This document shows, one piece after another, positions 2,269 through 54,161 of a stretch of 64,000 nt of DNA. This DNA comes from Narthecium ossifragum (taxonomy: Eukaryota; Streptophyta; Magnoliopsida; Dioscoreales; Nartheciaceae). Position numbers and translations under genes: made by a program. Positions within the stretch are counted from its first letter, which is position 1; every line of letters begins with the position of its first letter. The notes below the pieces were generated by a model. It saw only the letters and a program-made list of their open reading frames with translations, was not told the DNA's origin and did not search any database. The stretch spans positions 13,257,460 through 13,321,459 of the forward strand of contig OY986964.1 in NCBI GenBank assembly GCA_963920575.1, given 5' to 3'.

Positions 2269-3837
2269 TGTCACACCCCGACCCAGAAAACCCATCCAGG
2301 ACGGGGCGTGAGGGTCCTAACACTATTCATCATCAGCCGACGCAGTACAAGCGGAAAGGATAATCAATTTAATCAAAAGTAATCCAGAGGCTAAGCAGAT
2401 TTGATCATGTAATAATATCAAGTCTTACAATGTCTGAGTTTCAAAATACATATTTATACCAAATCCCAAAAGATCTCCAAAAAGGGTTACAACATGCATA
2501 ATTATATATATCAAAAAGTACAACAGTTACATCCTCCAACAAAACCTCAGACGCCTCTGGATGTACCTGCGCCGCCAAAAGCTGAACCAGTCGGCTCCAC
2601 CGAAGAGGAACTGCCGCCTGCACCTGCAAACGCAGCCCGGGTAGGAATGAGCAAAAAGCCCAGTAGGGTTCTACTCTACGGCACACTGAAGGGAGGAAAA
2701 CAATAACAGTGTTGTCCCCAAGCCTAAGTCTAAAGGATGCCACGGGTCCCATAACCCACCGATGTCCCAAGGGTTCCTGTCATGAAACCTCTCTCCTGAA
2801 CATGTTACCAGGAGGACCACGAAAACAATAACATGCAGGCTCTAGCCCTTACCCAGCAGGGATACCACTGCCTGGGGACCACGTCGGGAACTCCTCGGTT
2901 GCATCCCTAGCACTTGGCCTAGGAGGACAACACGACCTCTAAACCTCAAACAAAGATTCAAGCCGACTATCGCAATCCTCAATCATCAGAGATTCAGATC
3001 GACAATCACACCCTAATCCTGACTACCCAACCACGGTCCTAAGGCTAGATCCGAGCTACCCGAGAACCTCGGATCGGCGACCCAAGACATCGCCCGCCTA
3101 ACCTCAAATGCCTCTAATGCATACAATGCATGAGCTTAAGCAAACATCTACCCTAGATGTCTCTATATGTCACATCAGCAGTTATAAGTTCCACAGATAT
3201 ACAATAGCCCTCGGCACTCGCCGGCAAGAGGCTAAGGTTCCACAGTTCCTCATTAGCTAGCACTCATAGCTAGCTAATGGTTAAGCAAACAACTAAGCAT
3301 TTAATTTCTTCCAAACATGTATTTTCCATCAAAACTTGAATTAAATGCAAGCATAACCATAAGTTTGCAAAAAAAGGAGGAAACTCGGATCAAACATCAA
3401 ACCCGATGAAAGTCCTTTGAAAACATAATGAAATCCACTTACAAGCTTCCCTATATGTTTAAGATTCAATCAAGATTGAAGGCCATTTAAGGAAAACCAG
3501 AAAACACTGTTCAAAAGGCCACGGACGATGCCACGGTCGATCCGTGCATCGACCGTGGGGCCACGGACGATGCCACGGTCGATCCCTGGATCGACTGTGA
3601 GGCCCACACGAAGAAAACCAAGGGCGACGGTCGATCCAACCATCGACCCTGAACAGCCCAAAACCAACCAGAGCCTGACGGTCGATGCGACGGTCGATCC
3701 GACGGTCGACAGTCAGGTAAATGGCGAAAAAGCTAAGGTCCCACAGTCGATCGATCCATCGACCTTGGGAACCCAAAATCTCAACAGAGCCCGACGGTCG
3801 ATGCGACGGTCGATCCATCGACCTGTAATTGGTTTTT
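2269..3837 (-). mobile_element. Chromovirus 5' LTR, U3 side truncated
   Basis: The LTR starts (plus strand) TGTCACACCCCGACCC directly beside the PBS. It matches the reverse complement of the complete solo LTR at 21469-23844 through the R/U5 block near 2620-2700 and the GGTCGA array. The U3 part, TATA box and terminal CCTCACA are missing, because similarity stops at about 3837, where an Athila LTR fragment begins. Both partners are cut, so this is a deletion or recombination junction rather than a clean insertion. Confidence 0.8.
3521..3826. repeat. GGTCGA-type palindrome array (chromovirus LTR)
   Basis: Some ten copies of ACGGTCGATC, CCATCGACC and related forms lie in about 300 bp. Many are arranged as GGTCGA and TCGACC facing each other across about 8 bp. 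Overlapping frames translate as repeated IDR or DRS residues; those frames are artefacts of the array. Confidence 0.85.
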
Positions 3838-4935
3838 TTCATTGTAACCCTAACTCCGTCCTACCATAACCTAAGAATACATGATACCGGTTGTCACTAC
3901 AAGCAACGCGCAGCAAAAGTTTCACGGGAAAAAGCCCTAACCTTGTCTTACTAAATCCCTAAGAATACACAATATCAGCTGTCACTACGGGCAATGCATA
4001 GCAAAGGTTTCACGAGACTAGGTAGGAGAATGAAAAGATATAACTATGAGATCACAATATCATAAAAGAAGCATGAGTGGATTTATAATAACGTTCAACC
4101 ACAAAGCAATATGTAAAGATCCAATACATATATAGAGTTTCAACAATAAAGATCAAAACATGAACCATCGATTAAGAAGAAACCCTCGTCCTTGCTCAGT
4201 CATCCATCCGCCATGTCTCGAGGATTACTCGTCAATGGAGGGTGGATTGGTCGCCTTCTTCCTCCAGAAAAGGTCAGAAAAAGTCCTCCAAAAATGTCCA
4301 AAAACCTTTCTTGACTAACCCTAAGTTTCCTATTCATAAGCTCCAAAAGTTAAGAAACTCGGGTTAGGTTTAAACTCGTTATACGCTCACGGTCGATCCG
4401 ATGGTCGATGCCACAGTCGATCGTCAACTGTGTAACATTATTTGGAAAAGCGGCGGTTGATCTTCGCATCGACCCTGAGAAGTCTTTTTCTTGACAGAGG
4501 CTCACGGTCGATTTCACGGATGATGCGACGGTCGACCGTGAGTTTATTGAGCGCGGCGGTCAATCTCATGGATGATGCAATGGTCGACCGTCACTATTCA
4601 TTCAGCACTGCATCATTGGTACTGAAAATACTGTAACTTCCTCTAAGAAACTCAGAATCACGAACCGTAAAATTCTATAGAACTAGACTTCAAGCGATTT
4701 TCAATAATATATATGACATCATCTGGTTTTTCATGAAAAGGTACAGTTTAATCTTCCAAGTTGGCCCATGTAATCTTTTCAGCTTCTTTTAGCTCCAATT
4801 TCCTGCATTTTCCAAACAACTATGTGAAACAACATATAAATATAAAAATAGTGCTAAAGAGGTTGATTAAGGGTGACAATCTAGCAATTGAGGTGGTTAT
4901 AAGACTATTCAGAGTGCACTTTCATGCACTCATCA
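3838..4935 (-). mobile_element. Athila-type 3' LTR, truncated at its U5 end
   Basis: In sense this starts TGATGAGTGCATGAAAGTGC at 4935 and runs left to about 3838. It matches the plus-strand Athila LTRs at 43372 and 45094, including the GACAGCCGGTATTG block. The last roughly 450 bp of U5 are missing at the fusion with the chromovirus LTR. The neighbouring sequence 4936-4944 is the polypurine tract, so this is the 3' LTR of the minus-strand Athila element to its right. Confidence 0.8.
4386..4596. repeat. GGTCGA-type palindrome array (Athila LTR)
   Basis: Repeated ACGGTCGATC, GATGCGACGGTCGACCGT and similar forms lie in the U3 part of this Athila LTR. They use the same core as the array at 3521-3826, although the two LTRs belong to different retrotransposon lineages. 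Confidence 0.8.
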
Positions 4936-10302: not shown

Positions 10303-10542
10303 AAAGGATCGATCATCTCCAATGGGGATGATCGATCCTCCTAGTATTAGGAAGGTTTCGTCCCTGTCAAGCCCAACGTGATCGATCCTTCCTCCGAAAG
10401 GATCGATCATCCTCGCGACAGAGATCTCACCCATGCAAGCTAAGGCGAAATGATCGATCATTCTCACCAGATGATCGATCCTTCTCGGGCCAAGCATGAT
10501 GCACCAAGAGTGATCGATCCTTCCTCTGCAAGGATCGATCCT
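10303..10542. repeat. GGATCGATCC / ATGATCGATCAT array
   Basis: Four pairs of GATCGATC lie in the left arm, the members of a pair 21-23 bp apart (for example at 10307 and 10330). Each pair reads as a larger inverted repeat with 11-12-bp arms around 5-8 bp. The right arm carries the mirror copy at about 11236-11398, partly mutated. Confidence 0.85.
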
Positions 10543-10834: not shown

Positions 10835-10895
10835 GGATCGATCATTCCTCCTGATTGATCGATCACTCATAAGTTGGTTCGTCCGTCTATAAAAC
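10835..10895 (+). promoter_or_regulatory. LTR core promoter: GATCGATC pair plus TATA box
   Basis: TATAAAAC lies at 10888-10895 in the sense of the right-arm LTR. A GATCGATC/TGATCGATC pair ends about 25 bp upstream. The segment lies in the single-copy spacer of the palindrome. Confidence 0.6.
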
Positions 10896-12702
10896 GAACA
10901 CGACCTTCTTCTTTGAATCTTTTTGAAATCCGCCGTCCCTGAGCTCAGTTCTATCTGGATTTGGAAGAGATTGAGGGTGATCATCGGCTTGGCAGTAGGG
11001 ATTGAAGTTGCGCTAGTCTAGGTAAGGATCCTACCTTCTTGCTTTCCGGTTTGTTAGGTTTTGAGTTTGTCTGTGTTTGATTTGAGTTAATCTTGCTACA
11101 TGTTCCGTTGGTTTTTGACATATGTACTGGTTTTGGACTCGTGGTCTTTCGTACTACCAAATCCCAAGGTTTTGTGGGATTTGGTAGAGTTTTCTGACGG
11201 TATTTCTCGCCGTCTGCTTGCCGGAGAACCCAACAGGATCGATCCTTGCTAAGGATCGATCACTCTTGGTGCATCATGCTTGGCCCAAGAAGGATTGATC
11301 ATCTGGTGAGGATGATCAATCACTTCGCCTTGGCTTGCTTGGGTGAGATCTCTGTCGCGAGGATAATCGATCATCCCCATTGGACATGATCGATCCTTTG
11401 GGTGACAGGGAAGTGTTTTCACTGGTTTTTGCTCGCGGGGCTTTGCGTATGCGGGTTTTCTTTACCGCTTTATAAACTAGTACATATACTTGATGATAGC
11501 CCCACAGTGAGGGGTAGTGGTGAACCGGGAGAGTGATGACTCCCGAGATGTGTAGATAGCATGTTGTACTGTTTGTCTTATTTGCCGGGGTTATTTCCCG
11601 TAACATGCTGTCTTTTGGCGAACTGGTTGCAGTTGGTGGGGTTACCACTGTAGCAGTTCCTTGGCCTGTATTTATTGTCCACCACCCCGGGCCTGCAGGG
11701 TGCCGAGCCCAGACCTTGTTTACTTAACCGTCACATAAGTTGCATGCTTATCTGCTTTCATGCGTATGTGCATAGCATGCATCTGGCTGTGCATTAGTTG
11801 CATAAGGTTAGGGCGAGGGTGATCTGTGGGTCGCTGTCCTGAGGCTTTGAAGCTTGGATTTAGCCCTAGGACCGGGGTTGGGTAGCTTGGTCCAGGTTTT
11901 AATGGTGGTGTTCAGTCGATTTCGATGATAAGCCTAGATGACTCGAACACCTGTTAATTGATGATTTTAGAGGTCGTGTCGGCCTTGAGTTGGGTTCTGA
12001 GGTGTAGCCGGTGTCCAGTTGTGACGATTCTTGAGTAGAGGGTGTGCCTACTCAGCGGTGCAATTTCCTACCAGCAGTGCCGGTTTCCTTCTTGTGAGTC
12101 AGTAATGTTGGTTTCCTGCTTACTGAGCGTGACCCGTCATGTGACCAGTTCTGCTGGAAGATCATGACCGTGGACCTCAGGGACGCGCTGTGGGGTTATG
12201 AGGCCCCTGTGTACACCCAGGCCTTGTTTGAGGGCGACACTATTGTGTTTCCCTCTTCCTTTCTGTGTGTCGTAGTGTAGCTTCCCTGTTGAGCTTAGTT
12301 GCTCTTTCCTACCCGGGCTGCGTTTTGCAGGTGCAGGCGTTAGCTCCTCTTCGGTGGCCCCTAGCGGGCAGTTGGTCGGCGGTGCGGCGGCGCCTGGCGG
12401 AGTTTGAGGAGTGGTGATCTCCCCTTTCAGCTTCTGTTCACTTGTATAGTTAGCCTCCTATGGGAGTGTATAAATGTTTGTACATGATTTCCCCTCTTCG
12501 ATGTTTTGTAGAATGGCTTTTCAGATTTGTAATCTTCTGTTTGAGGTTTCTGTAAATTATAGAATTGTTAATTGAGAGTGTTGGTTGAATTGCTTAGGGA
12601 GACCAATAGGTTAGAGGGAACCTTCACCAAATTTTTCTGCAGTTTGTTAGGTTCTGGTTTGCGTCTCGATCCGGTTGGGCTTTCACGGGTCGGGGCGCGA
12701 CA

Positions 12703-18950: not shown

Positions 18951-21175
18951 CCGCGAAGGCCCAACCGGGCCGGGCGACGCGAACCGGAACCTAACTAAAT
19001 GCGGAATAATTTTGGCGAGGGTTCCCTCTAACTTATTGGTCTCCCTAAACATTTCACAAGTACCCATAATTAAGAATAATCAACAACCTCAAGAGATATA
19101 ATAAGATAAATGTAAATCCTTAAAAGGGTTAACATTCATATACATCACACTCCCGTAAGTGGCTATCGAACAAAAAAGGTAAATAGACGATCACCGCTCC
19201 TCAAGCACCGCTAGACGCCGCCGCGCCACCAAACACCTCCCCGGTAGGGGCCACTGAAGAAGAGCTAAGGCCTGCACCTGCAAAATGTAGCCCGGGTAGG
19301 AGTGAGCACTAAGCTCAGTAGGGTTCTACACTACGACACACAGAAAGGAGGGAACACAACAGTGTCGCTCCCAAGCTAGGCCCAGGTGTGCTACGAGGTC
19401 CCATAACCCCACCAGTGTCTCTAGGTATCCAACCATGGTCACCCTAACGAACTGGGCCCATCCCGGAAACACCTAGTACAGAAGGACGAAGACACTGCTG
19501 GGCAGGACAAGTCTCTGTCGGGCAGGCACACCCTCTGCCCAAGGATGAAACAACGACACTGGCTGCACCCTCAACACCTGGCTCGAGGTCGACATGACCT
19601 CTAAATCATCGATCAACATGTATTCAAGTCATCTAAGCCTATCATCAAGATTGACAGAATACTACCATCCAACCTGGACCATGCTACCCGTCACGGTCCT
19701 AGAGCTAAATCCGAGCTACTCGAAAGCCTCGGATCGGCGATCAACCCATCGCCCACACCCTATCCTTATGCATCTAATACGCAATCAAAATGCATGCTAT
19801 GATCATGCGCAGGTAAGAAGTAAGCATGCAGCAATATGATAAAATAACAATCAAGTTCAACTGGATTGCTGCAGCGATACCACCGACCGCTGCCAGCCAA
19901 TCCACAGCGGGTCCCGACATTATGACGGTACCGCGACCGTCAACCGCAAACCCTTGCAATGGGAAGCAACCCTGAAAACTCAGATGAACATAAATAATAT
20001 TATTTAATCATGAAGATCCTCTAATTAGAGCCTAAGCGACCTCGGCGATCCGACGTCCAAACAACTTTGGATTCGAGATCCAACTTAGACATACGTAGGA
20101 AAACATACTGGGATCAACATATCCAAAACCGGGAAACATCCGATGGCTCGATTACCGGAAAAACGCTAATCAAAACCGTTAACTTCACTAATTACCTTTA
20201 ATTGCTGCAACGCAACCCATCCTAAGTAAAATCATAACAATTCATAGGAAAATCAGAAAATTATGATGTTGGTTGCAACTGAGAATAGATCTAAAGATCT
20301 CAAACTCTCATGTTCATCATAAATCAAGATCATGCATGTACAAACCGAAACATACACCGTAAACAGGCTGTTCTTCAAGAACAGAGAAACCGAAAAATCC
20401 GAGTTTAAGCATGTTAAAATTCTACTAAAATCTCAATCAAATCATATGAAACTTAAAACAGTAATTAAGCTAATCAAGAAGCACACAACAATAGATCCAC
20501 CGACTAGATTAAGAGAAAAACCCATATTAACCCACGTAGGAAGAAACCTACCGAGCTAAGCAAACCTTGGCTGAATCCTCGTTATCTGAGCACCAAACCT
20601 GCTTCAAACCAAGCCAAAGATCTTCCTCTCGCTGCCACGAATCCAACGAGCCCTCAAGCACTCAAAATGATGGCAGGAGGAGGGAGAACAGAGGGGAAGA
20701 AGGTGGCTGCCGGAAACAGGGGAAACAGAACCACGGGAAAGAAGAAGAAGAAAGAAGAAGAAGGAGGAACCGGGGAAGAGAGGAGGAAGGAGGAAGGGGA
20801 TAAGGGAGAGGAGAGAAGAAAGATCTTCTCACCTCTGACAGCGGAGAGCGATGGCCAACGCCGACCGTCCACTCAGAAACCCACCGCCTCAACTTTCTGG
20901 CACAAGAAGATCGATCTCCTTGGCAAGGGAAGATCGATCTCTTTCACCCAAAAAGTCAAACTTGAGCTAAAACACAAGCCCAAGCTCAGATCTTCTGATC
21001 CCGGGTCCACCTAACCATTTTAATCAAACACTAACACAAACACGATCAGTGTGTGTACACGCGGGTGTGAAACAAACCGACAAGGCGTAATTTACCAAAT
21101 TGCCCTAGCGGTCCACAACGAGCCACTGGCCCTACCCAAGCGGTCTATCCAGGAGTAGAGGGACAGGTCCTCACA
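18951..21175 (-). mobile_element. Element X 3' LTR, 5' edge trimmed
   Basis: It begins within the LTR at CCGCGAAGGCCC, lacking the terminal TGTCGCGCCCC, and ends GGACAGGTCCTCACA. The junction has GAC microhomology with the LINE. One GATCGATC pair lies at 20907-20942 and a purine-rich GAAGAA tract at about 20740-20820. Confidence 0.82.
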
Positions 21176-22239: not shown

Positions 22240-22622
22240 TGACGGTCGACCGTCGGATCAACCGTCAGGTGTTGGCACGCTTGATTTTGGTCTCACGGTC
22301 GACCGTCGCATCGACCATGGCCTCATGGTTGACCGTCAGATCGACCGTTGCATCGACCGTGAGGCTCTGTCTCGTTTTGGGTCTCCCAGTGTCGATGTTC
22401 CGATCGACCGCGGGTCCTTACCCTATTTCCCACTTGACCTCACGGTCGACCGTCGCATCGATCGTGAGGCTCTGTTTTGCTTTTTGGCTTCCCAGGGTCA
22501 ATGTCCCGATCGACCCTGGCCCTTAAGCTTTTCCCACGTTTTGGTCTCACGGTCGACGGTCGGATCGACTGTCGCATCGACCTTGACCTCACGATCGACT
22601 GTTGGATCGACCGTCGCATCGA
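22240..22622. repeat. GGTCGACC array in solo LTR
   Basis: At least a dozen GGTCGACCGTCGCATCGACC-like units fill about 380 bp. Here the array lies about 480 bp downstream of the TATA box, inside the putative leader intron. Confidence 0.85.
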
Positions 22623-23844
22623 TACCCAATTATTTTAGGAAGGATGCACGTTGCTATCACGGGGTTTTCAATGGATTTTGATTGAGATTGGGAATTGAAC
22701 CGTGCGTTTACCCTTTGTGGCGAATTTATCGGTTGACTTGCATTTAAATACCTAGTTTGATGGTAAGCTTAAATGCTGATTGTTTACTTAGCCGTTAGCT
22801 AGCTATGAGTGCTAGCTTACGCTATATTGTGGAACTTTAGCCCGTTGCCGGCGAGTGCCGAGGGCTATTATATAACTGTTGAACTTATAATTGCCGTTGT
22901 GGCATATAGAGACATCTAGGTTAGATGTTTGTATAGGTTCATGCACTGTATGCATTACAGGTATATCAGGTTAGGCGAGGCGATGGGTTGATCGCCGATC
23001 TGGGGCTCTCGGGTAGCTCGGATCTAGCCTTAGGACCGTGGCTGGGTAGTAAGGTTTAGGACGTAATTGTAGCATTGGAATCTTCATGTTATCGGGGATA
23101 TGATGTAGTTGGTTATAATCATATTGTTATTGAGGTTTAGAGTTCGTGATGTTTCTCCAAGGCCAAGCGCTAAGGATGGTTGTCGATGTCCCCGACGTGG
23201 TCCCCAGGTAGTGGTTTCCTGCTGGGTAAGGGTGATCCTACTAGTTCCGGTTCTTGTTCCTCCCAGCATGTTGGTTGATGTTCCTAGCGTGGTCGGTTGA
23301 GAAGAGTAGGATCCCTTGGGGAATCGATAGGAGTTGTGGAACCCTGTGGAATTCCTTAGGCTTAGTTGGAGAGACGACACAGTTGTTGTTTTCCTCCCTT
23401 CAGTGTGCCGTAGAGTAGAACCCTACTGAGCTTATCGCTCACTCCTACCCGGGTTGTGTTTTGCAGGTGCAGGCGTCAGTTCTTCTTCAGTAGAGCCGGT
23501 CGGATTAGCGTTTGACGGTGCGATGACTTCCAGAGATGCTTGAGGTCACTGTGGGGCGACAGTTGTACTATTGATGGATTATGTATATTATAGACATCAT
23601 TTGAGGTTTCTTTTGAATAAATGTATAATTGTTTCCCTTGGAGGAATTTTGATAAGAATTTGTACCAGATGTCTAAATAGTACAACTTTATGTTTCCTTT
23701 AATTGAATTATAGCTTTACCCTTGGAAGTTAAATTGTTTAAATTATCTCTGTTTTCCGCTTTATATCACGCCAGATTGGATGTGAATAGTAATAGGAATC
23801 CTCACGCCTCGGGCCGGATGAGTTTTCTGGGTCGGGGTATGACA

Positions 23845-38429: not shown

Positions 38430-40683
38430 TGTCGCGCCCCGACCCGCGAAGGCCCAACCGGGCCGGGCGACGCGAACCGGAACCTAACTAATGTGAAATA
38501 ATTTTGGCGAGGGGTTCCCTCTAACCTACTGGTCTCCCTAAACAATTCATAAGCACCCTTATTAAAAGAAAGATTAACAACCTCAAAAGAAATATAATAA
38601 TATTCAAATCCTTAAAATGGTTTATATAATATACATCACACTCCCGTAGGAGGCTAACTAACAAAAAATGGGTAGACAGATGATCACCGCTCCTCAGCAC
38701 TGCCAAACGCCGCCGCACCACCAAAGACATGCCCGGTAGGGGCTACTGAAAAAGAGCTGACGCCTGCACCTGCAAAACGCAGCCCGGGTTGGAGTGAGCA
38801 TAAAGCTCAGTAGGGTTCTACACTACGACACACAGAAAGGGAGGGAACACAACAATGTCACCCCCAAGTAAGGTCTGGCTGTACACAGGGGTCCCATAAC
38901 CCCACCGTGTGTTCCTGAGGTCCATGATCATGATCTTCCAGAAGAACTGGTCACATGATGGGTCACGCTCAGTAAGCAGGAAACAACACTGCTGACTCAC
39001 AAGCAGGTAACCGACACTGCTGGCGGGAAATGACACCGCTGAGTACGCACTCCCTTTACTCAAGAGTCGTTATAACCGGACATCGGCTACACCTCAGAAC
39101 CCGACTCGAGGCCGACACAACCTCTAAATCATCGATCAATATGTATTCAAGTCATCTAAACCTATCATCGACATCGACTGAATACTACAATCCAACCTGA
39201 ACCTTGCTACCCGCCACGGTTCTAAAGCTAAATCCGAGCTACCCGAAAGCCTCGGATCGGCGATCGACCCATCGCCCACGCCCTAACCTTATGCATTTAA
39301 TGCACAACAGAATGCATGCTATGATCATACGCAGGCAAGAGATAGGTATGCAACAGTATGATAAAAGCAACACACAAGTCTAACTGGATCGCTGCAGCGG
39401 TACTATCAACCGCTGCCAGCCAATCCGCAGCGGGTCCCGGCATTACGACAGTACAGCGACCGTCAACCACGGACTCCTGCAATGGGAAGCAACCCCGAAA
39501 ACTCAGATGAACATATAATATAATATTATATGTTCAGCACATATAATATTATTAAAAAAACAAGGATCCTCTAATTAGGGGCTAAGTGACCTCGTCGATC
39601 CGACATCCAAATGACGTCGGATTCGAGATCCAAGTTAGACACCCACAGATAAACATGCTGGGATCAACATATCCAAAACCGGGAAACATCCGACGGCTAG
39701 ATTATCCAGAAAACACTAATCAAAACCACTAATCTAACTAATTACCTTTAATTGCTGCAACGCAGCCCATCCGAAGGAAAATCATAACAAATCATAGGAA
39801 AATCAGAAAATTATGAAATTGGTTGGGTCCGAGAGTAGATTCAAAGCTCTACAACGCTCATGTTCATCATAAGTCCAAATCATGCACGTACACTCCGAAA
39901 AACATGCCTTAAATCGGATGTTCTTCAAGAACAGAGAAACCGGAAAATCAGAGATTAAACATGTTAAAATCCTACTAAAAAATCTTATGAAGCTCATATC
40001 AGTAATTACGCTAAGCAAGAGGCATCCAACAACACCAAGAACAGCTAGATCTACCGGCTAGATCAAGAGAAAACCCCCTACTAACCCAAGTAGGTAGAAA
40101 CCTACCGGAAACGCACTCCTCGGCGGATTCCCCACGGTAGGGCCACCAAACCGGCTTCCAACCAAGCAAAGGATCTTCCTCTTGCTGCCACGAGTCCAAC
40201 GCCTTGAAGCACCCAAAAAGATGGCCGGAGGAGGGAGAACGGGGGGGGGGGGGGGGCGGAGAAGGAGACGGAAAGCAAACCAGAAAAACAGGGGAAGTCG
40301 CGGGCTATTTATAGGCTCGAGTCCGATCGATCGGTCTAGGGACTGATCGGTCGGACTGGCCGGGTTAAGTCGGTTCACGTCCTTATCAGGACACGTCGCC
40401 CATCGACACAGGTCCGATCGATCGCTAACAGGAGCGATCGATCGCCAACGGGCCGCTAGCTGCCTAAAAACAGGCTTCTGTGTGCCCGAGCTTGGATCTT
40501 TCGATCCCAAACCCGCCTAGGGTTCTAGCAAACACGTAAATCAAACATAGGAGCTGTGTGTGCACCATGTGGGTGTGAAAAAAATCAACAAGAAGCAATT
40601 TACCAAATTTCCCTTGCGATCGACAATGAGCCACGGGCTCGACCCAAGCGGTCGACCCAGGAATGGAGGGACAGGTCCTCACA
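38430..40683 (-). mobile_element. Chromovirus solo LTR, TSD AGCAT
   Basis: The 2254-bp LTR runs from TGTCGCGCCCCGACCC to GGACAGGTCCTCACA, with AGCAT at 38425-38429 and 40684-40688. Without it, the element X leader reads continuously to the PBS at 40775-40786. It carries TATAAATAGC (minus) at 40304-40313 and a run of 16 G at 40241-40256. Confidence 0.9.
40324..40446. repeat. CCGATCGATCGG / GCGATCGATCGC pairs
   Basis: One GATCGATC/GATCGGTC pair and one GATCGATC/GATCGATC pair, each 20 bp apart, begin about 11 bp upstream of the TATA box in the LTR's sense. Confidence 0.8.
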
Positions 40684-40789: not shown

Positions 40790-43027
40790 TGTCGCGCCCC
40801 GACCCGCGAAGGCCCAATCGGGCCAGGCGACGCGAACGGGAACCTAACTAAATGCGGAATAATTTTGGTGAGGGTTCCCTCTAACTTATTAGTCTCCCTA
40901 AACATTTCACAAGTACCCAAAATTAATAATAATCAATAACCTCAAGATGTATAATAAGATAAATTTAAATTCTCAAAAGGGTTAACATTCATATACATCA
41001 CACTCCCGTAGGAGGTTATCTAACAAAAAAGGTAAACAGATGATCACCCCTCCTCAAGCACCGCCAGACACCGCCGCGCCACCAAACACATGCCCAGTAG
41101 GGGCCACTGAAGAAGAACTAACGCCTGCACCTGCAAAACACAACCCGGGTAGGAGTGAGCACGAAGCTTAGTAGGGTTCTACACTACGACACGCAGAAAG
41201 GAGGGAACACAACAGTGTCTCTAGGTATCCAACCATGGTCACGCTAACGAACTGAGCCCATCCCGAAAACACCTAGTACAGCAGGACGAAGACACTGCTG
41301 GGCAGGACAAGTCTCTGCCGGGCAGGCACACCCTCTGCCCGGCAGGCACACCCTCTGCCCAAGGATAAAACAACGACACTGGTTGCACCCTCAGCACCTG
41401 GCTCGAGGCTGACATGACCTCTAAATCATCGATCAACATGTATTCAAGTCATCTAAGGCTATCATCAAGATTGACAGAATACTGTCATCCAACCTGGACC
41501 CTGCTACCCGCCACGGCCCTAGAGCGAAATCTGAGCTACCCGAAAGGCTTGGATTGGCAATCAACCCTTCGCCCACGCCCTATCCTTATGCATCTAATGC
41601 GTAATCAATAATGCATGCTATGATCATGCGCAGGTATGAAGTAAGACTGCAACAATATGATAAAATAACAAACAAGTCCAACTGGATTGCTGCAGTAATA
41701 CCACCAACCGTTAACCACCAATCCGCAGTGGGTCCCGGCATTACGACGGTACCACGATTGTCAACCACGAACCCCTACAACGGCAAGCAATCCTTAAAAC
41801 TCAGATGAACATAAATAATATTATTTAATCATCAAGATCCTCTAATTAGAGGCTAAGCGATCTCGTCGATCCGACATCCAAACGACATCGGATTCGAGAT
41901 CCAACTTAGAAAAAAGCAGGAAAACATACTGGGATCAACATATGAAAAACCGGGGAACATCCGACGGCTCGATTACTGGAAAAACGCTAATGAAAACCGT
42001 TAACTTCACTAATTACCTTTAATTGCTGTAACGCAACTCATCCAAAGAAAAATCATAACAATTCATCGAAAAATTAGACAATTATAAAACTAGTTGCAAC
42101 TGAGAGTAGATCCGAAGATCTCCAACTCTCATGTTCATCATAAATCAAGATCATGCATGTACAGACTGGCAAATACGCCGTAAACCGGCTGTTCTTCAAG
42201 TACAGAGAAATCGGAAAATTCGGTTTTAAACATGCTAAAATCCTACTAAAATCTCAATCAAATCATATGAAACTTAAAACAGTAATTAAGCTAACCAAGA
42301 TGCACACAACAACACTAAAAACATCCAGATCCACCGACTAGATTAGGAGAAACCCCATATTAACCTACGTAGGAAGAAACCTACCGAGCTAAGCAAACCT
42401 CGGCTGAATCCCCGCTATCCGAGCACCAAACTGGCTTCAAACTAAGACAAAGATCTTCCTCTCGCTGCCACGAATCCAACAAGCCCTCAAGCACTCAAAA
42501 TGATGGCCAAAGGAGGGAGAACAGAGGGGAAGAAGGTGGTTGTCGGAAACAGGGGAAATAAAACCGCGGGAAAGAAGAAGGAAGAAGAAAGAAGAAGAAG
42601 AAGGAGGAAGAAGAAGGAGAAACCGGGGAAGAGAGGTGGAAGGAAGAAGGGATAAGGGAGAGGAGAGAAGAAAGAACTTTTCACCTCTGACAGCGGAGAG
42701 CGACGGCCAACGGTGGCCGTCCACTCAGAAACCCATCACCTCAACTTTCTGGCACAGGAAGATCGATCTCCTTAGCAAGGAAAGATCGATCTCTTTCACC
42801 TAGAAAGTCAAACTTGGGCTAAAACACAAGCCCAAGCTTAGATCTTTCGATCCCGGGTCCACCTAACCATTCTAATCAAACACTAACACAAACACGGTAA
42901 GTGTTTGCACACGCGGGTGTGGAACAAACCGACAAGGCGCAATTTACCAAATTTCCCTAGCGGTCCACAACGAGCCTCGGGCCCGACTCAGACAGTCGAC
43001 CCAGGAGTAGAGGGACAGGTCCTCACA
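40790..43027 (-). mobile_element. Element X 5' LTR
   Basis: TGTCGCGCCCCGACCC to GGACAGGTCCTCACA, 2238 bp. Compared with the 3' LTR it lacks 53 bp between two CAGTGTC repeats (19360-19412 there) and has a 20-bp tandem duplication, GGCAGGCACACCCTCTGCCC, at 41321-41360. It carries one GATCGATC pair at 42759-42794 and a GAAGAA purine tract at about 42570-42665. Confidence 0.88.
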
Positions 43028-43371: not shown

Positions 43372-45030
43372 TGATGAGTGCATTAAAGTGTACTCTGAAC
43401 AGCCTTATTACCAACCCAATTATTGGATTTTTTATCCTTAATTAGCCTCTTTAGTATTGTTTTTACACTTACATGCTGCTTCACAAAGCTTGTTGAAAAA
43501 TGCAGGAAAAATGAGTCAAAAGGAGCAAAAAAGATGAAAGGATTAAATGGGTCAATTTCAAAGATTAAACTGTACCTTGTCAAGAAGAACCAGATCATGT
43601 TCCCTATATGATTGGAAATCTCTAAAAGTCTAGTTTATGGAGAATTTTATGATTCGTGATTCCGAGTTTCATACTGGAAGTTATGATATTTTTAGTACCA
43701 ATGGCGCAATGCTGAGAAAGAAGCTGAAACCTTTGCATAAAAAGATCGATCTTCTTTGCATTAAAAGATCAATCTTCTGTTCGCCAAAGATGACAGAAGG
43801 CAATATTTGAGAACATCGATACAGTTCGTGATTCCGAGTTTTCTAGAGGAAGTTACGGTATTTTTAGTACCAATGGCACAGTGCTGAGAAAGAAGTTGAA
43901 ATCTTTGCATTATAGGATCGATCTTCTGTGCGCCAGAGATGACAGAGAGCAATATTTGAGAAGATCGACCTTCTTCATATAAAAGATGAATCTCTTTTGA
44001 AACTGAAGTGATTTTTGAAACAGGAAGATCAATCTTTCTGTCTAAGAAGATCGATCTTTTACATGGCTGAAGCAGACAGAGAGTACATTTTCAAAAGATC
44101 GATCTCTTATTTTAAGAAGATTGATCTTCCTTGGCCACATCCAACTATAAGGGATCTAAAGATCGATCTTCATCCATAAAAGATTGATATTTTAAATAAA
44201 AGACTTAGGCTTATTCAAGGAGAGATGCTGGAGAGTAATTGGAGGCGAAGAAAAGAGGAGAATCTTCATCTCCGTGGCCGAGTAAATCTTCAAGGCATGG
44301 TGGACGGATGACTGAGCAAGGACAAGGGTTTCTTCTTCATCGATGGTTCATGTTTTGATCTTTATTGTTTTAACTCTATATATGTATTGGTTCTTTACAG
44401 ATTGCTATGTAGTTTAATATTATTATAAATCCAGTTATGCTTCTTTTATGATATTGTGATCCCATAATTATCTCTTTTGTTTTCTACCTAGTCTCATGAA
44501 ACCTTTGCATTGCCTGTGGTGACAGCCGGTATTGCATACTCTTAGGGATATGGTAAGATAAGGTTAGGGTTTATCACGTGAAACCTCTGCTGCACGCTAC
44601 CTATAGTGACAGCCATTATCGTGTATTCTTAGGTTCTAGTAGGACGGAGTTACTGCTGTAACGAGGAAGACCCGATCATAGAAAGAGACATTCATATTCT
44701 GCTAAATTCATAGTTCCATATCTTCTAGTTACGGTGATTGGGATGTGAATCCCTTAACTAAGTATTGCATGTACCATTGATAAGAGAAGAATCCAAGTTT
44801 GAGCGAGGGATTCCTGAAGCCTCACCTTTTCCAAGTCCTGATTTCATTTGTTAATCTCGTATCACTATTACATCTTCGATCTAACTTTCTTAACTCTTAC
44901 GCTCTTGATCATGTTCGATATATTGTTATCTGTATTTCTGAATCCTTTCTGCTTGTGTCTCTATGGGATCGACATTTCCTATGCTATACTGCATCACGAC
45001 TGCTATGTGAGACACATTTCAGCGACATCA
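43372..45030 (+). mobile_element. Athila LTR plus remnant PBS
   Basis: TGATGAGTGCATTAAAGTG to AGCGACATCA, 1659 bp. It is followed by TTGGCGTTGTTGGCC (about 45034-45048), a decayed form of the Athila PBS, so this was a 5' LTR; the rest of the element is gone. No matching 5-bp flanks were found. Confidence 0.78.
43741..44190. repeat. AAGATCGATCTT pair array (Athila LTR)
   Basis: Around ten AAGATCGATCTT-like sites include pairs 21-23 bp apart (about 43744/43767, 44027/44049, 44098/44120). A TATA-like ACTATAAGGG is near 44150. The same motif version fills the unrelated chromovirus LTR at 48603-49310. Confidence 0.85.
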
Positions 45031-45093: not shown

Positions 45094-46466
45094 TGATGAG
45101 TGCATGAAAGTGCACTCTAACAGTCTTATAATCATCTCCATTGCTACATTGTCACCCTTAATCAACCTCTTTAGTACTATTTTTAGATTTATATGTTGCT
45201 TCACATAGTTGTTTGAAAAATGCAGAAAATTAGCTAAAAGAAGCTGAAAAGATTACATGGGTTAACTTGCAATATTACACTGGACCTTCTTATGAAAAAC
45301 CAGATGATGTTCTATATATGATTGGAAAGCACTTGAAGTCTAGTTTCTGGAGAATTTTATGGTTTGTGATTCCGAGTTTCCTACAGGAAGTTACAGTATT
45401 TTGAGTACTAATGGCGCAGTGTTGAATGAATAGTCATGGTGTACCATCGCATCATCCATGAGATTGACCGTAGCCTCTGTCAAGAAAAAGACTTCTTAGG
45501 GTCGATGCGAAGATCGACCACCATTTTTCCAAATAATGTTGCACAATTGACGGTCGACCATCGCATCGACTGTCGGATCGACCGCAAGCATATAACGGGT
45601 TCAAACCTAACCCGAGTTTCTTAACTTTTGGAGCCTATAAATAGGAAACTTAGGGTTAGTCAAGGGAGGTTTTTGGACATTTTTTGAAGACTTTTTCTGG
45701 ACTTTTCTGGAGGAAGGAGACCAATCCACCATCCATGGATGAGTAATCTTTGGGCATGGCGGATGGATGACTGAGCAAGGACGATGGTTTTTCTTCCTCT
45801 ATCATTGGTTCATGTATTGGATCTTCATAGATAGTTATGTGGTTGAACATTATTATAAATCCAGTCATGCTTCTTTTATGATATTCTGATCCCATAGTTA
45901 TCTCTCTTCATTCTCCTACCTAGTCTCGTGAAATCTTTGCTATGCATTGCCCGTAGTGATAACTAGTATTGCGTATTCTTAGGGATCTAGTAAGACAAGG
46001 TTAGGGCTTTGTCCCGTAAAACTTTTGTTGCGCGTTGCCTGTAGTGACAGCCGGTATCGTGTATTCTTAGGTTCTGGTAGGACGGAGTTAGGGTTACAAC
46101 GAAAAGAACCAAACATAGAAAGAGACATTTATATTTTATCCGATTCATAATTCCATATCTTCCAGTCGAGGTAATTGATATGCGAATCTCTCAATTGAGT
46201 TTTGCATGAACCATTGATAAGAGAAGAACCCAAGTCCGAGTGAAGGATTCTTGAAGCCTAGCCTCATCCAAATTTTGATTTCTTTTGTTAACTTTATTTT
46301 ACCATTAAATCTTCGATCTAACTTTCTTAATTTTTACGCTCTTGATTGTTTTCGATACATTATTATATGTGTTTCTGGATCCTTTCTACTGTTTCCCTGT
46401 GGGATCGATCTCTCTTATGTTGTACTGCACCGCGACCGCTGTGCGAGACAAATTTGAGCGACATCA
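45094..46466 (+). mobile_element. Athila solo LTR
   Basis: TGATGAGTGCATGAAAGTGC to GAGCGACATCA, 1373 bp. Flanks CCTGC (45089-45093) and CCCGC (46467-46471) fit a target duplication with one transition. A GGTCGA-type array at about 45440-45592 lies just upstream of TATAAATAGG (45636-45645). Confidence 0.82.
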
Positions 46467-48421: not shown

Positions 48422-48602
48422 TGTGAGGATCCGTTTCTCTAACCTGGCTCGTCCGGGTGCGTCGAGCGTTGTTTCACACTTGTGTGATGCACAAACGACC
48501 TTAGAATGATGTCTGTGCTTGATTAGAACCCTTAGGTGTGACCAGGATCGAAAGATCAGGGTTTGGGCATAAGCGTTTGCCCGTTTGCCACTTTTCGGTA
48601 TG

Positions 48603-49310
48603 AGAAGATCGATTTTTTAGGGATAGAAGATCGATCTCCTTGTGCCTGGAAAGTCTTCGCCTTGTCATGAAGAAGATCGATCTTCATGGGGGGTGAAGAT
48701 CGATCTTTCTGGTCGTGACCGGTTCTATAAGTAGAACCCACCGACTTCCTTTTGATTTATTTGGAAATCTTGGAAGAAGGTTGAATCCGGCGGCTTGGGG
48801 AGGATCATTTGGACGATCCAAAGCTTATTGAGCTGGATTTGGAGGCTTCCATCTGTTCTAGGTAGGGATCTCAAACCAAATTATGTGATTTGGTTTCTTA
48901 GGGCTTGTTCTCTTCTCTTTTGCTTAGATCTGTTTGTTTAGCCATTGGTTTTCTGGTATTTTGGTGTTTTTAGACTCCTCTAGTCCTACGCTTTTCGATC
49001 CATGAGTTTCACGAAGCTTGGTTTTGTATTCCGTGAGTTTTCTGGTGTTTTCTTTGGTGGGTTTCCGACGGTGCATAAGAAGGATCGATCTTCTTGTGAA
49101 GAAGATCAATCTCCCTTGTGACCTCACGCCCAGCCCAAGGAGGATCGATCTTCATGGCCAGGAAGATTGATCTCTTCTTGAGCAAGGCGGTGTTGTGCTA
49201 TGGCCAGAGGAAGATCGATCTTCACTAGAGGTGAAGATCGATCCTTTCCTTGGCAGTGGATCTGTGTGAAGAGGATTGATCTTTACTGGAGGTGAAGAAC
49301 GATCTCCTTG
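48603..49310. repeat. AAGATCGATCTT pairs flanking a TATA box
   Basis: Two pairs (48603-48708) lie upstream of the TATA-like box and four pairs (49081-49310) downstream, members 21-23 bp apart. One pair is a perfect inverted repeat with 13-bp arms around 5 bp (GATCGATCTTCAC and GTGAAGATCGATC). Confidence 0.87.
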
Positions 49311-50213
49311 TGCAGTAAACGGATTTTGATTTGTTTTTCAATGGTTTTGATTTCAAATCAACTCGGTTTTCTTATATGTCTTTCCTAGTGTTAAAATTAG
49401 GGTATTATGATGTTTTAATCATGATTTCACGGTTTGCCTTCGAGTTTTACTATGATTTGTATTTCGGATCGTTTTGCCAACTTTTATGGATTTTAATCGG
49501 TTTTTCGATAAGCATGTAGTTTTAGTAGATGCATTTATTTATTATGCTTTATTTTAGTTATAACTTGTAGTAGTTAGATCTTTACCGTTTTGTGGTTAAC
49601 TGGGAGAGTCATGACGTCCGGGAATGTGTAGAATAATTGTACCTTAGATTGTTGATATGCCATATAATGACACATAGATTAGATGCCCGTATAGGTGCAT
49701 GCATTTGATTGCATTAGGTGCATTCAAGGTTAGGACGTGGGCGATGGGTTGATCGCCGATCCGAGGCTCTCGGGTACCCATAAAAGTTGGATAGCCAGGT
49801 TTAGGGCGAGATTGTGGTGTTATTGGTTTACCATATCGTGGTTCTTGAGGTTTAGAGGTCATACCGTCTATCCCTTGCCAAGCTTAAAGTGTGGGTGTGC
49901 TTTATTTTTCTATTGTTGACGTTTGGGGAGTACTAGATCCGCGTGATCCCTGGCGTGGTTCGCGATTGGGGAGCGCCTAGAGCCGACGTGATCCCCGTCG
50001 TGTTTGCATGCTTGTAGGTCGTTGCGCCTTAGGCTTGGCAAGGAGACGGTTCAGTTGCAGTTTCCCCTTCCTTGAGTATGACGTAGATTAGAACCATACT
50101 GAGCTTTGTTGCTAACTCCTACCCGGGCTGCGTTTGCAGATGCCGACGCCAGTGCTTTCGTACCTCCCAGCAGATCAGCTTTTGGCGGTGCGTTGACTTC
50201 TGGAGGGCATTGA

Positions 50214-52367
50214 TGTCGCGCCCCGACCCGCGTAGGCCTAACCGGGCCGGGCGACGCGAAGCGGAACCTAACCTACTGCGGAAATTTTGGCGAGGTTTCT
50301 CTCTAATCGTAGTGGTTACCCTAGCAATTCATAACCATCCTATATTAACATACAATTACAAACCTCAAAGACTGAACTGACATATATTACAAAACCTCAA
50401 AACATGGAAATTATACATTTATCACTCCCGTAGGAGACTAACTATAACAAAAAGGGTAAAAACTGTGATCACCGCTCCTCAAGCACCGCCAGATGCCGCC
50501 ACGTCACCAAACACTAGCTTGGCAGGAGCGACCGAAGAAGAGCTAGCGCCTGCACCTGCAAAACGCAGCCCGGGTTGGAGTGAGCACTAAGCTCAGCAGG
50601 GACACTACACTACGACACTCACAAGGGAGGGAACACAATAGTGTTGCCCCCAAGTCTACCCTAGGTGTATACAAGGGTCCCATAACCCTAGCGGAAGCCT
50701 GTGAGCGCAGGCCCAAAACACTGCATACTCTCAACAGGACACCGAACACTGTTTGGCGGGCCAGGACACCGCTGGGAAGGCACTCCTCCTCCCAAGAGTT
50801 TAAGAAAACCGGACTCCGGCTACACTTCGGATACAACTTGAAGTCGACACGACCTCTAAACATCAAACAACATGTATTCAGGTCATCTAACCCTATCATC
50901 GAAAACGACTGAATACTACAAATCGAGTCCTGGACCAAGCTATCCACAACAGTCCTAGAGCTAGATCCGGGCTCCCCGAAAACCCCGGATCGGCAACACC
51001 CTACACAGATGCAACTAATGCACAACACAATGCATGCTATGAACATGCGTAGGATAATACATGTAAGCATGCAGCAATATGTGATGATATAAATAACAAG
51101 GTCTGGGCACGGCACCCTGCCGGCCCGGGGTGGTGAACATGTAAGAAAGGTCTAGGAGCTGCTATAGTGGTACCACCACCAACTGTCAGTAGTCCGCCAC
51201 GCAACTGCACCGGGAAGCAGCCCCGCAAACAACAGCTCACAGATATCACAGATAAAGCCCTCGGCGCACGCCGATATGCAAAGCTAAGGAAAGCTGTAGG
51301 GCTACCCGCCCGTTTATTCTAAACATCCCGGGAGTCATCACTCCCCCGATTCACCACTGCCCCTATTATAGGGCTAACATGCTTAATCATATGTACCAGT
51401 TATAAAACAGTAGAGAAAACCAACATACAAAGCCCCGCGGGCAAAATCCACTTGAAAACACCTCTCTGCCATTAAAGGATCGATCTCCCTTCCCAAGGGG
51501 ATCGATCTCCTTAGTACCTAGGAGAACTCATCCCTGTCAACCGAAGGAGATCGATCTCCTCCTCCAGAGGGATCGATCTTCTTCGTGACGCGGAACTCGC
51601 CATCTCAGCCAAGACGAAGATTGATCTCTCTTCAACCGAGGGATCGATCCCGCTCGGGCTGGGCATGACACCTCAGAAGGGATCGATCCCTCCTTAAAGG
51701 AGATCGATTCGAATGGGTTCTCCGGCGCACTTCCGGTGAGAAATACCGCCGGAAAGTACATCCAAACTTCTCAAAACTCTGGGATCTGATAGATCAAGAT
51801 CCCACGAGTCCAAAACCAAAATCACGGAAAACCAACAAGTATATTGACAGATCTAAGCATAAAAACATAAATCAAAACGGAAAGACCAAAAACCCGGGAA
51901 GATGTAGGTAGGAATCCCTACCTAAGCAAGTGCAGCTTCAGTCCAAGCTGCTAGGCCTTAGATCTTCCTCAAACGAGCTCAGATCCAGCAAGAACACGGT
52001 TGAAAACTAGGAATTTTCAAAAAAATCAAAAGAGAAAGTTTCATTCGTTTTATAGACGAACAAACCGACTCAAAACAGATCGATCTCTTTCTTGCCAAAT
52101 CGGGTTTGACTTTTTGGCACAAGAAGATCGATCTCTTAGCTAGAGAAGATCGATCCGATTTGTCCAAAAAGCTAGACTTGGGCTAGAACTCAAGCCCAAG
52201 CCCGGATCTTTCGATCCCGGGTTCCACTAAACATTCTAGTCAAACATGAACACAACCATGGTCAGTGTGTGCACATGCGGGTGTGAAACAAGCCGACAAG
52301 GCGCAATTTACCAAATTGCCCTTGCGGTCCACGACGAGCCACAGGAGTAGAGGGACGGGTCCTCACA
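50214..52367 (-). mobile_element. Chromovirus solo LTR, TSD ATTGA
   Basis: The 2154-bp LTR runs from TGTCGCGCCCCGACCC to GACGGGTCCTCACA inside the LTR starting at 48422, with ATTGA at 50209-50213 and 52368-52372. It carries CTATAAAAC (minus) at 52058-52066 and the perfect U3 hairpin GCAATTTACCAAATTGC at 52303-52319. Confidence 0.9.
51476..52156. repeat. GGATCGATC pair array around TATA
   Basis: Four pairs at about 51476-51716, members 21-23 bp apart, lie downstream of the TATA box in sense; further sites at about 52077-52156 lie just upstream of it. Confidence 0.83.
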
Positions 52368-52654
52368 ATTGAGTTGATTGAAGATCTGATAGTACAGCTT
52401 GATAGTATAATATACAGTAACCCTCGTGGATAAGTTTATATGTATAATTCCATCCTTGAGTAATTTTGATATATATCTATACAAGTCTGATGTTATTGGA
52501 ATAGTGGAATAGTAAGTCTTTCAATTGCAGTTTTGCCATCAGAAGTTTTTTGTTTAGGTTATTGTGGTAATTGTTGTATCGCACAAGATCGGAAGTGAAC
52601 AGGTGTAGGTCCCTCCCCTCACGTCCTAGTCCGGATGGGTTATCTTGGGCCGAG

Positions 52655-54161
52655 TGATGAGTGCATGAAAGTGCACTCTGAACATGACTAAGAACAGCTT
52701 ATTTTCTGAGTTTTCATGATTAATATAGATGATTTCGTCCGTATATGTTGCTTCACAAAGTTATTTATATTATGCAGGAAATTGAAGCAAAGATGGGTTT
52801 TTAACGCCAAAACTGTACCTTCTCGGAATGAATCAAATGATGTGCTATACATGGTTTGAAAGCTCTGAAAGTCTAGTTTCTGGGAGTTTTTATGGTTCGT
52901 GATTTGGAGTTTCCTAGAGGACGATATGCTATTTTTAGTACGGGAGGTGCAGACAAAGCAGTTACGGAAGAAGAAGATTGATTTCATGCTCAAAGGATCG
53001 ATCTTCTAAGTGCATTTAATCCTGACAGAGCACATACTTTCAAAGGATCGATCATTGACCTTCTAATGATCGATCAGTTTATGCTACGGAGAGTTGACAG
53101 ATAACCAATTTTACGAAGATCGATCTTACTCTTCAAGAAGATCGATCCTACGCGGGGCGACCCAGGCTACGGAGAAATAGAGAAGAAGAAGATCGATCCT
53201 TTGCCTTGAGAGGATCGATCCTTTGTCGGGCGGACCTGAATACGAGTTACGAGATTTAATCCAAAGGCTGAAATAAAAGCTAGGGTTTCATACCCATATA
53301 TAAGGAGGTCTCTTGGGACGTTTTTAGAGGACTTTTTCTGACCTTTTTCTGAAGGAAGAAGATGAAGAAATCTCCATCCATGGCCGAGTAATCCGTGAGC
53401 ATGGTGGACGAATAACCTAGCGAGGATTAGGATTTCTTCTCTATCATGGTTCATAGTTTTAATCTTTATTGTTAAACTCTTTTCTATGTATTGAATCTTC
53501 AAAGATTATTTTCAGATTATAGATTTCTATGTGGATGATTAATATTATGAATCCAGTCATGCTTCTTTCATGATCTTATACTCCCGTAGTTTAATCTATT
53601 ATTTACCTACTTTATCTCGTGAAATCTTTGCTATGCATTGCCGGTTGTGAGAGTTAGTATTGTGTATTCTTAGAAATCTGGTAAGATAGAGTTAGGGCTT
53701 TGTCCCGATGAACTTTTGCTATACGTTGCCTATAGTGGCAGCCGGTATCGTATATTCTTAGGTTTTGATAGGATGAAGTTAGAGTTATAAAAGGAAGAAT
53801 CAGTCGTAGGAAGAGACATTTATATATTTCATTAGGTTTGTAGTTCCATATCTTCCAGTTAATGTGATTGGGATGTGAATCCATTAACTGAGTATTATAT
53901 GAGCCATTGAGAATAGAAGAACTTAAATCCGAGTGAAGGGATTCCTGACGCCTAACCTTATTAAAACCTTGATATCTCTAGTTAATCCTGAATTATCATT
54001 AAAGCCTTTGATCTAATTTAGTTAATTCTTAAGTTCTCGTTTATCTTCAATTCATTGTTATTTGCGTTTTGGATGTTTTCTGCTTGTCTCTCTGTGGGTT
54101 TGACCTCTCTTATGTTATTCTGTACCGCGACCGCTGTGCAAGACACATTTGAGCGATATCA
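52655..54161 (+). mobile_element. Athila solo LTR, TSD CCGAG/CCGGG
   Basis: TGATGAGTGCATGAAAGTGC to GAGCGATATCA, 1507 bp. It is inserted eight bases plus its duplication from the U5 end of the outer chromovirus LTR. Flanks are CCGAG (52650-52654) and CCGGG (54162-54166). TATATAAGG lies at 53297-53305. Confidence 0.87.
52973..53222. repeat. GGATCGATCC pairs (Athila LTR)
   Basis: Four pairs (20-22 bp apart) of GGATCGATC, TGATCGATCA and AGATCGATC forms end about 75 bp before the TATA box. This version is shared with the chromovirus LTRs at 9001-12702 and 24952-27276. Confidence 0.84.

Follow-up and report, generated by a model that had tools for sequence, protein, structure and literature searches.

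In a 64,000-nt stretch of Narthecium ossifragum DNA (contig OY986964.1; the whole stretch is called the window below), short palindromes were found to lie in regularly spaced arrays, mostly of pairs, in the long terminal repeats (LTRs) of two families of retrotransposons. In the window, plant LTR retrotransposons are nested within one another, and the arrays occur in a chromovirus-type family, F1, with 9 LTR loci delimited (F1a-F1i), and in elements of the Athila type, with 7 LTR copies delimited (A1, two of A2, and A3-A6). The palindromes come in two sequence types, called dialects here, and both dialects occur in both lineages. This is a known kind of feature in a new setting, and it is real and ordered. 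The explanation that we favor, to which we give somewhat better than an even chance, is that these are palindromic cis-regulatory arrays like those of Sireviruses, in which a host protein would bind the paired palindromes and regulate the LTR promoter, here in two Ty3/gypsy families. All results refer to this one 64-kb window, and their extent across the genome cannot be inferred from it.

Palindrome pairs of the first dialect

The palindrome of the first dialect, GATCGATC, has 69 copies in the window compared to a mean of 1.2 and a maximum of 4 in 100 dinucleotide shuffles. It is by far the commonest 8-base palindrome there, the runner-up having 10 copies. An initial annotation of this DNA, made from the sequence alone, had described such palindromes as pairs 20-23 bp apart, and the counts bear this out. 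Exact GATCGATC pairs with starts 20-23 bp apart number 22, with 0 in the shuffles; when one mismatch is allowed per site, the number rises to 37 (shuffle mean 0.05, maximum 1). The pairs it gave as examples, 10307/10330 and 43744/43767, are both present, the site at 43767 reading GATCAATC, and a 17-bp spacing is also seen (11237/11254). A fold-back search blind to the motif returned 51 fold-backs from the window and 2-7 from each of five Markov controls. By hand count, these 51 include 29 GATCGATC pairs within LTRs and 4 fold-backs of the second dialect. A chance origin of the arrays is ruled out by the shuffle and Markov control counts.

Nineteen of the 22 exact pairs are in F1 LTRs and the other 3 are in one Athila LTR, A5, while each of the pairs in Athila A3 has one mismatch. 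The claim that the same geometry is found in two lineages holds, with F1 and Athila both belonging to Ty3/gypsy. The further claim that nearly every LTR carries the pairs is true of F1, where 7 of the 9 loci have them, and fails for Athila, where they are limited to 2 of the 7 copies (A3 and A5; A6 could not be scored). In addition, the interval given for the feature, 3521..53222, begins at an array of the second dialect (3531-3825) and not at a GATCGATC array.

From the start of one pair to that of the next there are 60-62 or 68-74 bp in F1 LTRs and 70-73 bp in Athila LTRs. Helical phasing of the whole array was considered and rejected, as 72 bp makes 6.9 turns of 10.5 bp; only the two palindromes within one pair are nearly in phase.

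The positions reported earlier around the TATA box are broadly correct. By alignment, a homologous upstream place carries a pair in F1c, F1e, F1f, F1g, F1h and F1i, and the nearest F1 site ends 11-23 bp before TATA. A further array is located about 350-625 bp downstream in F1b, F1e, F1h and F1i. The number of sites per LTR varies from 2 each in F1c and F1g to 13 in two clusters in F1e (4 before and 9 after TATA), which has one more at 1446 in LTR coordinates. A5 has 7 sites that are exact and 1 that is decayed, at 323-568 of the LTR, followed by TATA at 644; the decayed site is the first, at 52976, and reads GATTGATT. The arrays are as follows.

10307..10540, minus strand: R/U5 array of F1b, four GATCGATC pairs with spacings of 23, 21, 21 and 21
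10836..10864, plus strand: upstream pair of F1b, GATCGATC at 21 bp, ending 23 bp before TATA TCTATAAAAC
11237..11395, plus strand: downstream array of F1b, three pairs; C-to-T or G-to-A changes have altered two of them, and one has a spacing of 17 bp
20909..20939, minus strand: upstream GATCGATC pair of F1c; no TATA matched
26310..26593, minus strand: downstream array of F1e, four pairs and a lone site
26966..27064, minus strand: upstream array of F1e, two GATCGATC pairs, the nearest site ending 23 bp before TATA
40325..40443, minus strand: upstream array of F1f, two pairs of CGATCGATCG-type palindromes at 20-bp spacing, the nearest ending 11 bp before TATA
42761..42791, minus strand: upstream GATCGATC pair of F1g; no TATA matched
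48607..48705, plus strand: upstream array of F1h, two pairs before the TATA-like TCTATAAGTAG, the nearest ending 20 bp before TATAAG
49083..49304, plus strand: downstream array of F1h, four pairs, of which three are mismatched at one site or at both
51478..51709, minus strand: downstream array of F1i, four pairs with starts 71, 70 and 62 bp apart
52078..52155, minus strand: upstream array of F1i, a pair (22 bp) and a single site that ends 23 bp before TATA
43744..44168, plus strand: array of A3, three GATCGATC pairs (one mismatch each) and lone sites
52976..53220, plus strand: array of A5, lying before TATA, four GATCGATC pairs with starts 70, 72 and 73 bp apart
4386..4602, minus strand: second-dialect array of A1, CGGTCGACCG type, TCGA cores 12 bp apart
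45430..45590, plus strand: second-dialect array of A4, upstream of TATA CCTATAAATAGG
3531..3825, minus strand: second-dialect array of F1a, matching that of F1d
22240..22630, plus strand: second-dialect array of F1d, downstream of TATA
32438..32507, plus strand: array in coding DNA of the Athila element 29031-37698, with four CCGATCGATCGG-like palindromes at intervals of 19-20 bp

Another fold-back, CTACCAAATCCCA ... TGGGATYTGGTAG, recurs in F1 LTRs at 10590-10623, 11154-11187 and 26643-26676, where it separates the upstream part from the array farther down.

A second dialect and its probable sharing between lineages

In F1a, F1d, A1 and A4, CGGTCGACCG-type sites take the place of GATCGATC. 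Their TCGA cores are 12 bp apart, and the linkers are mostly 39-42 bp long (range 30-53 bp). TCGA pairs at exactly 12 bp occur 22 times in the window, compared to a mean of 0.9 and a maximum of 5 in 200 Markov controls, and 20 of the 22 fall inside these four arrays. The A1 array aligns without gaps to that of F1a over 162 bp (62%) and to that of F1d over 90 bp (70%), in the same orientation and with the linkers included. A 29-base comparison of the A1 linker with four F1 linkers gave 16, 13, 18 and 16 identical bases; shuffles matched as well in 0 of 5000 cases for three of the comparisons and in 1.8% for the fourth. The motif CTCTGTC is common to linkers of both lineages and both dialects, and 9 of its 16 copies in the window are inside arrays. 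It was, however, chosen post hoc and stands 13th by ratio among the enriched 7-mers; many of those ranking above it overlap the second-dialect palindromes, while CTCGCGA, CAGGGTC and AGAAGAT do not plainly do so. The array limits used for the linker, folding and CpG comparisons were set by hand.

These matches in linker and register favor the view that the CGGTCGACCG arrays are one module shared between the lineages, rather than a product of pure convergence. The earlier suggestion that a promoter module spread between families gains support from the same gapless alignments. Another possible explanation is that a common host factor selected the same site in both lineages with no exchange of DNA. 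The GATCGATC arrays could have arisen in this manner, since they give many short cross-lineage matches that are borne largely by the sites alone, and related boxes are reported from a Vitis Sirevirus and from Tnd-1 (PMC2829016). The linker sequence and register that the CGGTCGACCG-type arrays have in common across lineages argue against it. We regard convergence as a real possibility, though one that we lean against. It is a subquestion, and it is compatible with binding by a host protein.

The A2 LTRs (29031-29600 and 36267-36840) have a few GAATATTC/AAATATT sites with CTGACAG nearby, upstream of TATA. These are possibly a further dialect, judging by inspection of 29031-30520 by eye.

The pair as a fold-back unit

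The unit of the first-dialect arrays is a fold-back, consisting of a fixed 8-bp palindrome, a short variable arm, a small loop, the complementary arm and the same palindrome again. Between related LTRs, identity in U3 (five LTRs) is 85% at the sites, 55% inside pairs and 62% elsewhere, and in R/U5 (three LTRs) it is 88%, 42% and 72%, respectively; the columns compared were made by the aligner and the sites were labelled by their own sequence, which favors the sites. In 7 of 10 U3 comparisons and in all 3 R/U5 comparisons, conservation was lower in the stretch inside pairs than in the remainder.

Although the inner stretch varies, its two arms continue to match. Across 34 pairs and five arm positions, standard base pairs fill 75.3% of the cells compared to 59.9% after shuffling. 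Inner-arm covariation in this set is 0.600, against 0.315 when shuffled and at most 0.325 when slid, and 0 of 500 shuffles were as high, with the caveat that related sequences may exceed all shuffles without any structure. The pairs were chosen by hand. The set of 34 omits 11237/11254 and includes two F1f pairs; a set of 33 includes 11237/11254, a set of 32 omits it (its spacer is 9 nt), and the pairs of the coding array at 32438-32507 were left out of all covariation sets. As an example of the variation, the first arm base pair of the homologous upstream pair is T-A in F1c, F1g, F1h and F1i, C-G in F1e and G-C in F1f, and the inner arms are GCT/AGC in F1f and TTC/GGA in F1c. Arm pairs changed on both sides did not exceed shuffles (191 of 500 as high), and the covariation of the outer flanks is not clear (0.304 vs 0.270 shuffled, 85 of 500 as high).

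Plain dimer sites with self-symmetric flanks were rejected as the whole story. The flanks of single sites covary at 0.328 and 0.409, compared to 0.243 and 0.318 after shuffling (values as high came up in 3 and 5 of 500 shuffles, respectively). This is far below the value for the inner arms, and the self-symmetry of these flanks within copies is not significant (p ≥ 0.29, 33 pairs).

Since the sites are conserved, the inner stretch is variable and the arms covary, the sequence of the palindrome and the length of the spacer are constrained, while the spacer sequence turns over and yet keeps its complementarity.

RNA hairpins, DNA fold-backs or no function

RNA hairpins were among the explanations first proposed. 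In that case, LTR transcripts would form clusters of hairpins that give rise to small RNAs in host silencing or that serve an RNA step of the element. The fold-back repeats with their covarying arms agree with this idea, and so does predicted folding: in all 13 of the LTR sequences that have arrays, 110-nt windows within the array have a lower mean minimum free energy, uncorrected for base composition, than those outside it, making the arrays folding peaks. In maize, palindrome clusters of Sireviruses are reported to attract small RNAs (PMC10760457). The mismatches, however, show no tilt toward GU on the sense strand. Arms have 24 GU and 23 AC mismatches and sites have 4 GU and 7 AC (34 pairs); for sites and arms pooled, the numbers are 26 GU and 23 AC (33 pairs). 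Because GU equals AC on the sense strand, the constraint does not resemble that of RNA pairing, and a sense-RNA hairpin was rejected as the main selective target. Folding also needs no conservation of the same 8-bp sequence. Moreover, many 110-nt windows in F1 arrays are under -40 kcal/mol, but Athila arrays seldom reach this level (1 window in 4 array LTRs), and the A4 and A5 arrays are upstream of TATA, so that only their 3' LTR copy would be transcribed. We therefore consider it unlikely that the arrays act as RNA. A DNA fold-back, or template-switch repair of imperfect fold-backs, fits the arms better than RNA pairing does, as far as the pattern of mismatches can indicate.

The same repair process could operate on arrays that have no function at all. 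Tandem duplication would then have amplified GATCGATC, and template switching at imperfect fold-backs, in the course of reverse transcription or replication, would keep the arms complementary. Regular repetition of the pairs, covariation without strand bias and turnover of the spacer are all consistent with this. It leaves unexplained, however, both the position at TATA and the fact that such arrays recur in two lineages of this window and in Sireviruses, and the CpG-bearing sites are conserved between LTRs that otherwise differ by 30-40%. We think it quite improbable that the arrays lack a function.

It is very improbable that the palindromes are docking motifs for an element-encoded anti-silencing protein like VANC: VANDAL motif arrays do evolve by tandem repeats and differ between subfamilies, but VANC21 motifs are all in one orientation, palindromes are not mentioned in the text of that account (PMC5735166), and arrays common to two unrelated lineages speak for a host factor. 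The elements in the window are truncated.

Proposed binding by a host protein

The explanation that we favor supposes that the two palindromes of a pair, separated by about two turns of the helix, are bound by a sequence-specific and probably dimeric protein of the host, which would thereby set the activity of the LTR promoter. The two dialects would be alternative binding specificities. Tandem duplication would account for the growth of the arrays, and recombination or template switching would have carried one of them at least, that of CGGTCGACCG, between the lineages. The arms would stay complementary either because imperfect fold-backs are repaired by template switching or because selection acts on a DNA hairpin that is extruded. 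Reading the palindromes as binding sites is supported by their conservation, by the existence of two alternative dialects and by their position at the promoter. The same sequence features lend support to the initial annotation's idea of a site for a dimeric host factor.

Several observations weigh against this explanation. The Athila LTR pair 29031/36267 (A2) has a TATA box and no array. One similar short array, at 32438-32507, lies outside any LTR; it is in the coding region of an Athila element, within the gag-protease linker, where the reading frame is largely open and has TDRS/IDRS repeats. A protein site alone needs no complementary arms, and binding by a host protein does not by itself explain them. 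The flanks of single sites covary somewhat across copies, though not within them. The effect of the inner arms within LTRs is modest (p 0.005-0.015 with GU and 0.02-0.08 without, 33 pairs), and the within-copy arm test on the set of 32 pairs gave p 0.05-0.18. In 3 of the 10 U3 comparisons, the stretch inside pairs was not less conserved than the rest. Finally, the copies are few and related.

A broader proposal is that a family of host DNA-binding factors drove the same palindromic promoter code into Sirevirus, Athila and chromovirus elements, with at least two dialects switching in parallel in different lineages of a single genome, and with modules that pass between lineages. The working unit would be no plain dimer site but a fold-back whose fixed palindromes enclose changing, complementary arms, and extrusion of a DNA hairpin at the LTR promoter would form part of the switch. 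We put this forward as a doubtful, speculative extension. The arrays bear on the questions of how plant retrotransposons of different lineages share control and how the host tells them from genes. If a code with dialects is common to the LTRs of Ty1/copia and Ty3/gypsy elements, a short probe could serve to look for the host protein. Shared modules, if confirmed, would show that LTR promoters recombine between lineages, and the covarying arms provide a test, at the level of sequence, between a protein site and a hairpin function.

The retrotransposon families of the window

F1 was named chromovirus-type on the basis of its LTR ends and because the 3' end of F1a is adjoined by the primer site TGGTATCAGAGC and then by a frame in which Retrotrans_gag and RVP_2 precede the beginning of RVT_1. 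The first six of 20 database relatives of this gag-protease-reverse transcriptase frame are proteins of Rhododendron, Actinidia and Camellia, with 42-60% identity. Neither a chromodomain nor an integrase end of the F1 family was identified in the window, and we can thus only infer that F1 belongs to the Tekay/Del clade. The Athila-type assignment is based on how the LTRs end and on the primer site TGGCGCCGTTGCCGGGG, found after 30487 and 60170 and followed by similar frames. It is also based on reverse transcriptase and integrase frames at 6671-8697, which match in DNA the Athila-type element at 62358-64000. The lineage names chromovirus (Tekay/Del) and Athila are our assumption rather than the outcome of a tree, and we likewise take the primer site TGGCGCCGTTGCCGGGG and the gag-RVP_2-reverse transcriptase frame to be marks of Ty3/gypsy. 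A search of viral contigs with the F1 chromovirus-type protein gave 4 stretches, none of them confirmed, and one with the pair pattern gave 0 matches. The nomenclature of the lineages is treated in PMC6317226. The LTRs are listed below.

3' end at about 2268, minus strand: F1a, truncated F1 LTR
9001-12702: F1b, two inverted halves of an F1 LTR
about 18948-21175, minus strand: F1c, F1 LTR
about 21470-23844, plus strand: F1d, F1 solo LTR
24952-27276, minus strand: F1e, F1 LTR
38430-40682, minus strand: F1f, F1 LTR
40790-43027, minus strand: F1g, F1 LTR with primer site TGGTATCAGAGC adjoining its 3' end
starting at about 48423, plus strand: F1h, F1 LTR interrupted by two later LTR insertions
50214-52367, minus strand: F1i, F1 LTR
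3829-4935, minus strand: A1, Athila-type LTR
29031-30487 and 36267-37698: A2, LTR pair of the Athila element 29031-37698
from 43372, plus strand: A3, Athila-type LTR
45094-46466, plus strand: A4, Athila-type LTR
52655-54161, plus strand: A5, Athila-type LTR
59948-60170: A6, remnant of an LTR end only, in which arrays cannot be scored

Some of these loci have an unusual structure. The insertion at 9001-12702 (F1b) has U5 ends of the F1 LTR at both of its ends, which is odd for a solo LTR, as the halves stand head to head. They run from 9001 to about 10800-10824 and from about 10980 to 12702, and the middle stretch has the U3 pair and TATA. The flanks, GCGTC and GCGTG, resemble a 5-bp target duplication, and an empty site is found at 62600-62645 on the reverse strand. 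At 48423-54171, F1h is split by the nested solo LTRs F1i (target duplication ATTGA) and A5 (CCGAG/CCGGG). F1f and F1g are only about 106 bp apart (40683-40789), primer site included, and the stretch between them matches the leader after F1a; despite this small separation, the two LTRs are 15-21% different in the pieces that were aligned. Remnants resembling long interspersed nuclear elements are present at 46668-48439 and 57210-59915, with a DUF4283-type frame just below the Pfam cut-off and reverse-transcriptase-like frames judged by eye.

Comparison with known systems

Repeated boxes upstream of TATA are found in the U3 of tobacco Tnt1 and Tto1, which are Ty1/copia elements with few copies of different motifs. 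Tandem repeats of Tnt1 are mentioned in PMC3601003, PMC6911290 concerns palindromes at insertion sites, not promoters, and PMC11302176 does no more than cite a paper on palindromes.

VANDAL elements, which are DNA transposons, carry short motifs arrayed in noncoding transposable-element DNA. Their arrays of VANC target motifs are described as evolving by tandem repeats with variants specific to subfamilies, and they differ from the arrays here in that the motifs are in one orientation and the protein is encoded by the element (PMC5735166). Del (Tekay) LTRs, which would be of the same lineage if F1 is Tekay, have variable 5' CpG islands that are absent from eudicot Del elements (PMC4029996). 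The CpG-rich, fast-changing upstream segment is a likeness, and palindromes are not mentioned in the text of that study.

In maize, according to PMC10760457, the palindrome clusters of Sireviruses fold and attract small RNAs, Ty3 elements are generally without such a folding peak, and a palindrome is common to copia elements and Helitrons. Those clusters belong to the cis-regulatory region of the LTR and, like the arrays here, fall at folding peaks; the peaks found in this study are in Ty3/gypsy LTRs.

The closest system is that of the Sirevirus LTRs, and the initial annotation's statement that no system of this form had been described has to be given up. Bousios et al. (2010; PMC2829016) reported that these Ty1/copia LTRs hold many copies of palindromic boxes, which precede TATA and are situated mostly in the LTR's upper half. 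These repeated-motif (RM) boxes number at least 8 per element, begin 200-400 bp after the LTR start and extend over 300-500 bp. The boxes form CpG islands, and further copies are found inside elements with an envelope gene, to which the coding array at 32438-32507 may be compared (PMC2829016). In this window, 15 of 17 array stretches have a ratio of observed to expected CpG above that of the remaining LTR (in two of them by 0.01) and 2 have a lower one, and G+C exceeds 0.50 in 4 of the 17. Boxes in both systems are palindromic with dyad symmetry. The second dialect has as its core the very sequence of the Vitis Sirevirus box, CGGTCGACCG, and the Tnd-1 box, ACAATCGATTGT, has ATCGAT in common with the first (PMC2829016). 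The CGG-CCG core typical of Sirevirus boxes, to which Tnd-1 is an exception (PMC2829016), is present in CGGTCGACCG and absent from GATCGATC.

The same paper terms the box Sirevirus-specific, in contrast to classic Ty1/copia elements, and its available part does not describe the pair geometry, the repetition at 60-74 bp or the covarying arms (PMC2829016). Among the open-licence papers listed in the literature searches, judged by titles and abstract beginnings, no description of paired palindromes in Athila or Tekay LTRs was found. Two aspects thus appear to be new, in that we have not seen them described in the parts of the literature available: the parallel occurrence of both dialects in two Ty3/gypsy lineages within a single genome, and the covariation of the arms that lie between fixed palindromes. 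Since the host elements are Ty3/gypsy and not Sireviruses, the arrays would work like the Sirevirus box system without being a member of it.

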